From contig CAKJYC010000010.1 in assembly GCA_918244965.1 (NCBI GenBank), forward strand, positions 1 to 35,959: 35,959 nucleotides of DNA. The letters run 5' to 3'. Source of the stretch: Clostridiales bacterium. GTDB lineage: Bacteria > Bacillota > Clostridia > Christensenellales > CAG-138. The translations under genes were made by a program, and so were the position numbers. Below are positions 2,417-7,499 of the stretch, piece after piece. The notes beneath the pieces are model-generated. The model was not told the DNA's origin. It saw only the letters and a list, made by a program, of their open reading frames with translations, and did not search any database. How positions within the stretch are numbered: position 1 is the stretch's first letter; each line of letters begins with the position of its first letter.

Positions 2417-3145
2417 TTACGTTCGTTCGATCCCGACAAGATCCCTGATGATCTCGCCCGCCAGAATGAGCCCCGCGACCGACGGCACGAACGCGATGCT
2501 TCCCGGCGTCTGCCGCTTCGGATGGGCTTCGTTCGGTTCCGGCTCCGTTTGCGCCGGCGCGATCGGCGTCTCGTCGGACCAGACGACCTTCAGATGATCG
2601 ATCCCGCGTTTTTTCAGCTCGCGCCGCATGACCCGCGCCAGCGGGCACACGCTCGTTTTGGAGATGTCGCCGACCCGGAACGCGGTCGGGTCCAGCTTGT
2701 TGCCCGCGCCCATGCACGAGATCACCGGCACGCCCGCCGCGTGCGCGCGTTCGATCAGCAGCAGCTTTGCCGACACCGTGTCGATCGCGTCGACAACGTA
2801 ATCGTACTGCGAGAGATCGAAGCGGTCCGCGGTCTCCGGCCCGTAAAAGCAACGGTGGATCCGCACGACGGCGTCGGGGCGGACGGACGCAATGCGCGCC
2901 TGCACGACCTCGACCTTGGGCTGTCCGACGTTTTCACGCACCGCGTACAGGACGCGGTTCAGGTTGGTGACGGAGATGCAGTCGTCGTCGATCAGATCGA
3001 GCGCGCCGACGCCGCTTCGCATCAGCGCTTCGACGGCGAAGCTGCCGACCCCGCCGAGCCCGAATACCGCCACGCGCGCGCTTTTGAGCCGCGCGACGCC
3101 GTCCTCGCCGAGCAGGAGCTTTGTTCTTTGCAGTTGATCCGCCAT
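2417..3145 (-). CDS. tcdA: tRNA threonylcarbamoyladenosine dehydratase (TcdA/CsdL family)
   Basis: The 242-residue protein belongs to the E1-like ThiF/MoeB superfamily. It has a nucleotide-binding Rossmann loop VFGLGGVGS near the N-terminus, then LNRVLYAV, the DAIDTVSAK segment and the family-typical CMGAGNKLDP. TcdA uses ATP to cyclise t6A37 to ct6A37 in tRNAs that read ANN codons, acting in the cytoplasm. Length and motif order match the TcdA branch rather than MoeB or ThiF, since no CxxC zinc pairs are present. The ATG at 3145 is preferred because AGGAGG lies just upstream; an in-frame upstream start at 3220 would overlap the previous gene. It lies 14 nt after the metallophosphoesterase in the same operon. 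Confidence 0.92.
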   Translation of the reverse strand: MADQLQRTKLLLGEDGVARLKSARVAVFGLGGVGSFAVEALMRSGVGALDLIDDDCISVTNLNRVLYAVRENVGQPKVEVVQARIASVRPDAVVRIHRCFYGPETADRFDLSQYDYVVDAIDTVSAKLLLIERAHAAGVPVISCMGAGNKLDPTAFRVGDISKTSVCPLARVMRRELKKRGIDHLKVVWSDETPIAPAQTEPEPNEAHPKRQTPGSIAFVPSVAGLILAGEIIRDLVGIERT

Positions 3146-3159
3146 GCGCGGTCCTCCTT

Positions 3160-3777
3160 TTATTCGTTCGGTTGCTTTGCCGCGCCGGCGGCCTGTATCT
3201 CCAGCGGGAAGCGCAGCCATGCGTTGATGATGCGCACGCCGTGATAGCTTTGCTCGCGCGGGATGCCGTAGGACAGGTGGACATGCCCGTGGACGAGCGC
3301 CTGCGGCCGCCAGCGGTCCAGCATCGGCAGAAACGATTCAAACCCGCGGTGCGCGTAATCGTCCGCGTCGCCGAAGCCGTGCGGCGGGCAGTGGGTCAGC
3401 ACGAGATCGACGCCGCCGGCCTTCTTCACGGCACGGTCCAGCCGCCGGATGCGGGCGGCCATCTGCCGCTCGGTGTACTGATGCGCGCCGCCGCTGTACA
3501 CGCAGCTGCCGCCGAGGCCGAGGATGCGCAGTCCGTTGTACACAACGAGCCGGTCCTCGATGCACTCGCACCCCTCCGGCGGAAAGCGGTCGTAGCTTGT
3601 GTTGTGGTTGCCGTGCACATAGAGCACGGGGATGTTCGCCATCGTCACCAGAAAGCTCAGATACTCGGCGTCCAGATCGCCTGCGGACAGGATCAGATCG
3701 TAGTCCCTGAGCCGTCCCGGCACATAGTAATCCCACAGCGCGGGATCGGGTTCGTCGGAAATCAGCAGTATCTTCAT
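3160..3777 (-). CDS. Metallophosphoesterase family protein
   Basis: This 205-residue protein has the calcineurin-like phosphoesterase motif series: LSAGDLD (metal-ligand GD motif), YVHGNHN (GNHN), a histidine in LTHCPPHG, and the C-terminal LVHGHVHLSYG (GHxH). The first motif reads ISDEPDP, so the usual D-x-H has become D-x-E. This is a variant I associate with a subgroup of clostridial phosphoesterases. It is probably a cytoplasmic dinuclear-metal phosphodiesterase or phosphatase; the substrate is unknown. The ATG at 3777 overlaps the stop of the upstream BMP-domain gene in ATGA, so the two are translationally coupled. Confidence 0.9.
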   Translation of the reverse strand: MKILLISDEPDPALWDYYVPGRLRDYDLILSAGDLDAEYLSFLVTMANIPVLYVHGNHNTSYDRFPPEGCECIEDRLVVYNGLRILGLGGSCVYSGGAHQYTERQMAARIRRLDRAVKKAGGVDLVLTHCPPHGFGDADDYAHRGFESFLPMLDRWRPQALVHGHVHLSYGIPREQSYHGVRIINAWLRFPLEIQAAGAAKQPNE

Positions 3778-5813: not shown

Positions 5814-6593
5814 TCACCCGAAGCGGTCCGCGGCATTTTTCACCATGCAGTCGACCGGCGCGTTGTAGAGGCACGCCATCAGGTACCGTTCGCCGCGGAC
5901 GACCTCGCCGGCATGCTCGTTCAGCCGGCGTTCCACATAGTCGATGTGATCGACCGTGAGCATTCGGAGCCGGTCGCGGATCGCGGCGTTGCCGACGTCG
6001 ATCCCGTTGACGGAAAGCCGCGGCATGCGGTACATCGAAGCGACCGTCTGCCGGACGGATTCGGCAAAGACCCGGTCAAAAAAGGTTTCCAGATGCAGGG
6101 ACGCCAGGATCGCGTCAAGTCCGGTCGTGTCCTCGCGCGCGTTCATACCGACTGACGGAACGTCGCCCGTTATTTCTTTACTATTATTATTTATTTCCCG
6201 GCCACGACATGACGGGGGCGGGGTCACGACGTGACGGGGGAGGGGGTCACGACGTGACGATGCGGTCGTCACCTCGTGACAATCGGCGCCGCCTTTTTGG
6301 GACGGCGCGTCACACAGACGGTACCGGTTGACGCTCTGCCGCATACGGCCGTTTTTGGACAGCGTATGCGTTTCTTCGGTGCGGATCAGCCCTGCGCGCT
6401 TCAGCTCGGAGACCGCTTTCTGCACGGTGTTGCGCGACATGCCCGTTCGCGCGGCGATCGTCTCCTTTCCCGGAAAACAGACGCCGTCTTTGTCCGCGCA
6501 GAAGCAGAGATACGCGTACACCGCAACGGCATACGCGGAGTGTTCGCCCTCAAAGATCGCTGCCGGCACATAAAAGGTTTTTCGCTTTGCCAT
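5814..6593 (-). CDS. HTH/DUF6017-type replication initiator-like protein
   Basis: The 259-residue protein has an N-terminal winged-helix domain (about 20-95; ETIAARTGMSRNTVQKAVSE is the helix-turn-helix). A low-complexity linker follows (about 100-150), then a C-terminal domain (about 155-259) in which VDHIDYVERRL and YLMACLYNAPVD resemble DUF6017. DUF6017 is found at the C-terminus of replication initiators of clostridial plasmids and integrative elements. Expected role: binding origin repeats and recruiting the replisome. The linker DNA carries four regularly spaced 13-bp repeats and an AT-rich tract, annotated separately. The ATG at 6593 is chosen because the domain begins there and GGAGGG lies upstream; longer in-frame starts run into the riboswitch region. 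No relaxase, integrase or partition gene is nearby, so it may be a stranded remnant. Confidence 0.75.
   Translation of the reverse strand: MAKRKTFYVPAAIFEGEHSAYAVAVYAYLCFCADKDGVCFPGKETIAARTGMSRNTVQKAVSELKRAGLIRTEETHTLSKNGRMRQSVNRYRLCDAPSQKGGADCHEVTTASSRRDPLPRHVVTPPPSCRGREINNNSKEITGDVPSVGMNAREDTTGLDAILASLHLETFFDRVFAESVRQTVASMYRMPRLSVNGIDVGNAAIRDRLRMLTVDHIDYVERRLNEHAGEVVRGERYLMACLYNAPVDCMVKNAADRFG
6171..6196. other. AT-rich tract, candidate DNA unwinding element
   Basis: Twenty-four of 26 bases are A or T inside an otherwise GC-rich gene. The tract directly adjoins the repeat array at 6201-6280 and encodes the NNNSKEI part of the protein linker. The position matches the easily melted region beside iterons in replication origins. 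This is inferred; no function is shown. Confidence 0.55.
6201..6280. repeat. Four iteron-like 13-bp repeats inside the initiator gene
   Basis: Copies of GTCACGACGTGAC lie at 6223-6235 and 6246-6258. Variants GCCACGACATGAC (6201-6213) and GTCACCTCGTGAC (6268-6280) flank them. Start-to-start distances are 22, 23 and 22 bp, about two helical turns, so all copies face the same side of the DNA. The unit is nearly palindromic. The spacing is not a multiple of three throughout, so the repeats are not just a repeated peptide. They look like binding sites for the encoded initiator. Confidence 0.7.
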
Positions 6594-6620: not shown

Positions 6621-6661
6621 AGTATACCGGAAACGGGGCGGGCAAACTTCCCGGAAGTTTG
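6621..6661 (-). promoter_or_regulatory. Promoter of the initiator gene with an overlapping 19-bp palindrome
   Basis: On the minus strand a good -10 (TATACT, 6626-6621) lacks a good -35 at 17 bp (AAGTTT, 6649-6644). That weak -35 lies inside a perfect interrupted palindrome, CAAACTTCC-C-GGAAGTTTG (6643-6661). A related half-site occurs near 6682-6692. The arrangement suggests an operator for a repressor or activator, possibly the initiator itself. Confidence 0.5.
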
Positions 6662-6740: not shown

Positions 6741-6760
6741 GTACATCAAATTGATACATT

Positions 6761-6834
6761 GTCTGCCGATATAGGTCCGGATGGATGGCCCGGACGTTTC
6801 TACCGCGGCGCCGCAGCTGCGACTATTGGGAGAC
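6761..6834 (+). promoter_or_regulatory. Purine (guanine-type) riboswitch aptamer
   Basis: The purine aptamer layout is visible. P1 pairs GTCTGCCGA (6761-6769) with TTGGGAGAC (6826-6834), allowing one mismatch and a wobble. P2 pairs GTCCGG with CCGGAC around a GATGG-containing loop. The hallmark GTTTCTACC joins P2 to P3. P3 is GCGGC with GCTGC, and GACTAT follows it. The C in GACTAT occupies the position that pairs with ligand; adenine riboswitches have U there, so this one should bind guanine, hypoxanthine or xanthine. Its place before xpt is classical. Confidence 0.92.
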
Positions 6835-6875
6835 GGGGAAGCGCAGGGCGCGTGCCTTGCGGTTCCCGCGTATCG

Positions 6876-6920: not shown

Positions 6921-7499
6921 ATGAAGGAACTCAGGGAACGGATCCTCAAGGAGGGCAAGGTGCTGCCGGGCGACATCATCAAGGTCGACGGGTTTTTGAA
7001 CCACCGCGTGGACTGCGCGCTGATGGGCCGCATCGCGGACGAGTTTGCGAAGTATTTCAACATCGACGACGTGGATCTTCTGCTGACCGCCGAGGCCAGC
7101 GGCATCGCGCTGACGGCGATCTGCGCGCTGCGCTACGGCAAGCCGATGCTCTACGCCAAGAAGGCCAAGAGCGACAACGTCGAGGGCGGCCTGTTCACCA
7201 GCGAGATCTTCTCCTATACCTATAAAAAGAAGGTCACGCTGCTCGTCGCGAAGGACTGGCTGCAGCCCGGCACGCGCGTGCTGGTCGTCGACGATTTCCT
7301 TGCGCGCGGCGAAGCGCTGCGGGGACTGTGCGATATCGTCGAGCAGGCGGGCGCGCAGCTTGTCGGTATCGGCTGCGCGATCGAAAAGGGCTTCCAGAGC
7401 GGCGGCGACCGGCTCCGGGAGCGCGGCGTGAACCTCAAATCGCTTGCGATCATTGACAAAGCGGAGCCCGGCAATATCGTGTTCCGGGAGGACGAGTGA
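6921..7499 (+). CDS. xpt: Xanthine phosphoribosyltransferase
   Basis: The 192-residue cytoplasmic enzyme converts xanthine plus PRPP to XMP in purine salvage. The type I phosphoribosyltransferase PRPP loop [13 protein letters not shown] is present, with the Xpt-typical N-terminus [12 protein letters not shown] and the DGFLNHRVD segment. Length matches the usual 190 to 195 residues. The ATG at 6921 follows GGAGGGG. It is the first gene after the guanine riboswitch, and its stop codon overlaps the guaA start by one base. XMP made here is the direct substrate of GuaA, so the pair forms a short xanthine-to-GMP route shut off by guanine. Confidence 0.96.

Follow-up and report, generated by a model that had tools for sequence, protein, structure and literature searches.

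Origins of replication located within initiator genes are familiar from plasmids and phages. Lambda O and the O-like phage initiators carry their origin iterons and an A/T-rich tract within their own gene. In pSK41, one of the RepA_N theta plasmids of Firmicutes, Rep binds four boxes located centrally inside rep; the protein can do without its linker peptide, and its C-terminal domain binds primase (PMC5703833). The Rep protein of pPR9 has an N-terminal domain of the PF13730 family, and its rep region replicates autonomously as a mini-replicon. The region exchanged between pPR9 and pSK41 comprises the N-terminal domain together with the origin (PMC5703833).

The gene described here lies in a 36-kb window (the whole stretch of DNA analysed, 35,959 bp), and its anatomy agrees with that of the pSK41 and pPR9 Rep proteins, a likeness to initiators with an internal origin that a first-pass annotation had proposed. 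As in pSK41 Rep, we observe an N-terminal winged helix, four boxes mid-gene, a central linker and a separate C-terminal domain. In contrast to pSK41 Rep, RepA_N is undetected, the gene is chromosomal without partition or transfer genes, the predicted boxes are G+C-rich dyads, and gene-less copies are dispersed. The central in-gene boxes of RepA_N initiators are matched by four dyads (6201–6280), putative boxes that are conserved as DNA. With the pPR9-type hybrid Rep the protein shares an N-terminal domain of the same family (PF13730, E = 1.9e-14), whereas its C-terminal domain is DUF6017-like and the gene is not on a plasmid. Unlike in lambda O-like initiators, no phage genes surround the gene, and the link at the protein level consists only of weak PHROG matches to the N-terminal domain. 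The origin-in-initiator layout being already known, the new part is that origin-like linker DNA also occurs without the gene. The best explanation, which we consider probable, is a chromosomal solo initiator of the theta type with an embedded origin, accompanied by origin-only derivatives.

The gene occupies positions 5814–6593 of the minus strand, with its ATG at 6593 and its stop codon at 5816–5814, and encodes 259 residues. A Pfam scan places an HTH_36 (PF13730) DNA-binding domain at residues 20–70 (6384–6536, minus strand) with a bit score of 53.6, the cut-off being 25; other HTH families are also matched, and RepA_N (PF06970) is not detected. The C-terminal domain (5817–6122, minus strand) is helical in the structure model (pLDDT 87) and matches DUF6017 weakly (E = 5e-4), under the Pfam cut-off. 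In PHROG, the protein best matches phage families annotated as 'replication initiation protein' (2.1e-13). The fold model of the N-terminal domain matches winged-helix domains including the initiator N-domains 4pql and 4pt7 (93 residues, Z 8.1, rmsd 3.7–3.8), with which many unrelated winged helices tie. PDB searches with the C-terminal domain model gave no significant match among those listed, which did not include the pSK41 Rep C-terminal domain, and there is no mention of DUF6017 in the literature searched.

Exactly one HTH_36 gene above the cut-off is present in each of four genomes tested. An Alicyclobacillus plasmid encodes one full-length homologue (26% identity), which adjoins a ParA gene. 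Searches of phage and plasmid collections with the protein gave matches chiefly to the N-terminal domain, and a profile search of viral contigs gave two relatives, one of them a phage-contig protein that combines a C-terminal domain of this kind with a different N-terminal domain; the element pattern has no exact match in the viral contigs. Phage contig L206 carries, at 2851–3531, a DUF6017-like C-terminal domain after an unrelated N-terminal domain, with a terminase-like gene nearby, so this domain seems modular.

Four 13-bp dyads, starting at 6201, 6223, 6246 and 6268 and thus at steps of 22, 23 and 22 bp, lie within the linker codons. In gene order, these are dyad 1 at 6268–6280 (plus strand GTCACCTCGTGAC, gene strand GTCACGAGGTGAC), the identical dyads 2 and 3 at 6246–6258 and 6223–6235 (plus strand GTCACGACGTGAC, gene strand GTCACGTCGTGAC) and the degenerate dyad 4 at 6201–6213 (plus strand GCCACGACATGAC, gene strand GTCATGTCGTGGC), which adjoins an A/T tract at 6171–6196. 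The tract contains 24 A or T among its 26 bases, includes GGAAATAAAT, which is invariant in 25 copies, and is the most A/T-rich 26-mer of the window, with no equal elsewhere in it. The positions of dyads and tract had been annotated exactly. The interval of 6171–6280 first assigned to the element is correct for these parts, but the conserved element continues to around 6135 and beyond, into the codons of the C-terminal part. A core of 67 bp common to the gene-less copies spans 6135–6201 on the minus strand, as seen in the alignment and in codon identity. The layout is of the iteron type, with direct repeats about two helical turns apart and an A/T-rich region alongside, and the order is the same in the copies compared.

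We compared the array with a synonymous null, in which the same peptide is encoded by random codons drawn from local codon usage. Such recoding never attained the four-dyad score (0 of 20,000 trials) or the repeat-identity score (0 of 4,000), and no place in the rest of the window comes within one point of the score of the array. A separate 19-bp dyad, CAAACTTCCCGGAAGTTTG, is located at the putative promoter (6643–6661), and a similar dyad stands upstream of the gene in genomes G009, G006 and G021, both being recognized by sequence comparison only. At 6214–6246 of the plus strand, two G-rich spacers flank a dyad (GGGGGCGGGG-dyad-GGGGGAGGGGG), an arrangement in which a G-quadruplex with a hairpin loop is possible; G-rich spacers are found again in most copies of the element.

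The neighbours of the gene are chromosomal. They include the divergent xpt, encoding xanthine phosphoribosyltransferase (6921–7499, plus strand), behind a purine riboswitch outside the element (6747–6845, plus strand), a GMP-synthase-like gene and others. No relaxase, integrase or ParA/B was found among the neighbouring proteins scanned in the window, which bears out the first-pass annotation on this point. Arrays of CGATATGCCTGCGGCG-type hairpin repeats, with periods of 16–18, 36 or 49 bp, occupy positions 1–150 and 418–518 of the window and 12900–13290 of L167; similar units are also intergenic in G006:C1, so a further dispersed repeat family is likely.

Linker repeats at steps of 21–24 bp are present in 11 of 11 homologues tested from the same genus of rumen Clostridia (two of them near-identical), a favourable outcome of the homologue comparison proposed at the outset. 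The repeats are significant under the synonymous null in all 11 sequences and in one of another genus (0 to 39 of 2,000 recodings). A dyad-only synonymous test, run first, was too weak for most homologues; repeat identity was used for this reason, and was chosen after that test on identical data. Under the same null, the linkers of L096 and L097, from a further genus, have no significant repeats, and those of the Alicyclobacillus plasmid track a repeated peptide and are thus not significant. The linker peptides are merely 28% identical among the seven closest homologues. In the core (GREINNNSK..GDVPSVG), codons for the same residue are 90% identical, in contrast to 59% in the N-terminal and 63% in the C-terminal domain, which is the pattern expected for a DNA site within a gene. 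These comparisons at the DNA level support the view that the linker is a conserved cis-acting site, and not a by-product of the protein sequence.

Copies of the element without the gene were first revealed by a protein search, as matches limited to the linker with frames interrupted by stops. A pattern search of 23 genomes of the genus locates 30 copies, spread over 17 of them, the reversed control pattern giving none; most of the six genomes without a copy are incomplete. Across the genome collection, the pattern is confined to contigs matching this genus. About half of the copies are intergenic and non-coding. In the alignment of 25 copies, more than half of them non-coding, 35 of the 67 core columns are invariant, a figure from which survival of the core is not estimable, because all copies were found through it. 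Two copies (L072 and L082) keep pieces of the C-terminal domain, and the other flanks searched have no significant gene match. Within single arrays (e.g., L084 and L090), the repeats keep nearly one sequence.

Beyond the A/T tract, many copies appear to have a hairpin that pairs GTCCCGTC with GACGGGAC. Across L065–L095, GTCCCGTC(AGTC) and GACGGGAC stand about 30–90 bp past the tract as a possible long-loop hairpin, and copies with GTCAT seem likelier to have a matching ATGAC. In G015, the gene copy (L071, at the end of G015:C19) leaves the contig just beyond the core, and L072 on G015:C5 is a second copy, without the N-terminal domain; more copies may be concealed where the assembly breaks at this repeated element.

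The xpt locus differs between genomes: G000 and G009 have the gene, G006 has a reduced form of it, and G003, G004, G011 and G021 lack it. A unit of promoter plus gene is found at several unrelated loci of the genus. Gene copies at different loci share about 67–75 bp upstream, with a promoter-like stretch and a dyad in it, and the shared unit ends just past the stop codon, at most about 10 bp away. At the position of copy L080 of G006, G022 still carries the beginning of an intact gene. L080 itself has kept the leader, the dyads, the core and a few C-terminal codons, with neither domain left. At least one copy therefore arose through in-place loss of coding parts.

Autonomous transposons with their MITEs, and RAYT/REP systems, combine a coding member with shorter gene-less members that have a common cis site. 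The family described here is alike in this respect, whereas no transposase or terminal repeat was found in the comparison of loci, and no clear target duplication was apparent when empty and filled SpoVAE–TPR and xpt sites were compared by eye. The 'stranded element' considered in the first-pass annotation fits in part, and misses the same DNA dispersed without the gene across the genus.

The locus between SpoVAE and a TPR gene shows how such copies persist. A gene-less copy is present there in five species, the site is empty in G004, G007 and G013, and G010 has a remnant at the SpoVAE locus from which the core has been lost. The SpoVAE–TPR core is 81–99% identical, as against 58–80% for most pairs at the fourfold sites of the flanking genes; between G006 and G022, it is 99% identical, as against 68% and 75% at the fourfold sites of the two flanking genes. 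The dyads of this locus are 50–72% identical and have been replaced while the core is kept. Between G011 and G022, which agree at 97% of third positions in the TPR codons next to it, the array is swapped outright. The orphan cores of G000 and G015 are each similar to the gene present in the same genome, so conversion between copies may occur. Retention is not universal, since several loci show no sign of the gene and the G010 copy lost its core.

Dyad type can be compared with the recognition helix of the protein. The RNTV(K/Q)KA helix pairs with GTCA or TCA half-sites (G000, G009, G001, G016, G015 and G007), RSSVKRT with GTTC dyads (G006 and G021), and KSTVRRA with the GTTC dyad of the Alicyclobacillus plasmid homologue. 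Dyad sequence shifts between lineages along with the recognition helix, which is only suggestive of binding because few independent changes are involved. In G006, the intact gene is of the GTTC type and the gene-less copies are of three types, a mismatch with the single initiator of this genome. A search for CCGTGNGACGG arrays gave gene-less copies only, with no initiator gene of that type.

Taken as a chromosomal copy of a modular Gram-positive theta-type replication initiator, the gene suggests the following mechanism. The HTH_36 winged helix would bind the four dyads of its own linker as dimers, which the spacing of 22–23 bp, or two helical turns, would place on one face of the DNA. The bound protein may then unwind the A/T tract beside them; recruitment of replication proteins may fall to the C-terminal domain, as has been reported for the Rep of pSK41. 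The linker site would be, or have been, an origin, and the initiator could act in trans on origin-only copies, which are probably conditional or retained relics and not constant chromosomal origins. In the element core, a search allowing one mismatch found no DnaA box, and the host dnaA loci examined have nothing like the element. Read 3′ to 5′, AATAATAATAG resembles DnaA-trios as defined in PMC8287927.

The first-pass annotation had raised a second origin, and an active one, or a site of locus-specific amplification, would account for origin-like anatomy in a chromosome. GC skew is mostly of one sign for about 100 kb on each side of the G006:C5 copy, with no flip, and does not reverse at the G006:C1 and G015:C1 copies. 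A constitutive second origin is therefore unlikely, and the six genomes in which the pattern search found no copy, most of them incomplete, also weigh against this reading, which we regard as very improbable. The copies may instead be used conditionally, serve mobile replicons in trans or be retained as relics. We give just as little credence to the repeats reflecting repeated amino acids or RNA hairpins instead of a protein-binding site. Palindromic arms could pair and C-rich spacers recur, but the synonymous null speaks against a coding need, stops break the frames of gene-less copies, and the near-uniform repeats within arrays such as L084 and L090 are not the independent compensatory pairs of RNA hairpins. 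An operator array, in which the HTH protein regulates its own gene and dispersed sites with no involvement of replication, is improbable. Its winged helix resembles those of many repressors, the sites lie between chromosomal genes, and there is a single HTH_36 gene over the cut-off in each of the four genomes; however, the invariant A/T tract and the core beyond the dyads are left unexplained, some gene-less copies (SpoVAE–TPR) are downstream of both convergent genes, a separate conserved dyad is present at the gene's own promoter, and replication is indicated by the matches of the C-terminal domain and those in PHROG.

Two further readings are unlikely. The copies could be inert relics, left where initiator genes of past mobile elements decayed and the linker DNA happened to last longest; this agrees with our preferred explanation on a past site and differs on whether it still functions. 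The in-place stripping of L080, the C-domain pieces of L072 and L082, the loss of the core in G010 and the mixed dyad types inside one genome are in line with decay, and in G000 and G015, conversion by an intact copy of the gene may account for part of the core conservation. Nevertheless, the SpoVAE–TPR core outconserves the fourfold sites of both flanking genes in nearly all pairs. The other reading, which we hold to be equally tentative, is a one-gene selfish replicon of about 860 bp (promoter, initiator and embedded origin) that spreads without a transposase, its gene-less, origin-only derivatives being sustained in trans by each genome's one initiator and its dyad specificity swapped as a cassette, as in G011 and G022.

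The proposed solo initiator with its origin-only derivatives places an architecture of plasmids and phages as a resident of chromosomes, with an embedded site that forms a dispersed non-coding family outliving the gene. The paired changes of helix and dyad hint at a recognition code of HTH_36 initiators that is open to testing. The intact gene, the gene stripped in place, the origin alone and the empty site form a natural series, which lets one ask how an origin relocates, how its specificity changes, and how a chromosome tolerates it or puts it to use. Replication-start sites may thus spread, and endure, independently of the gene whose product recognizes them.
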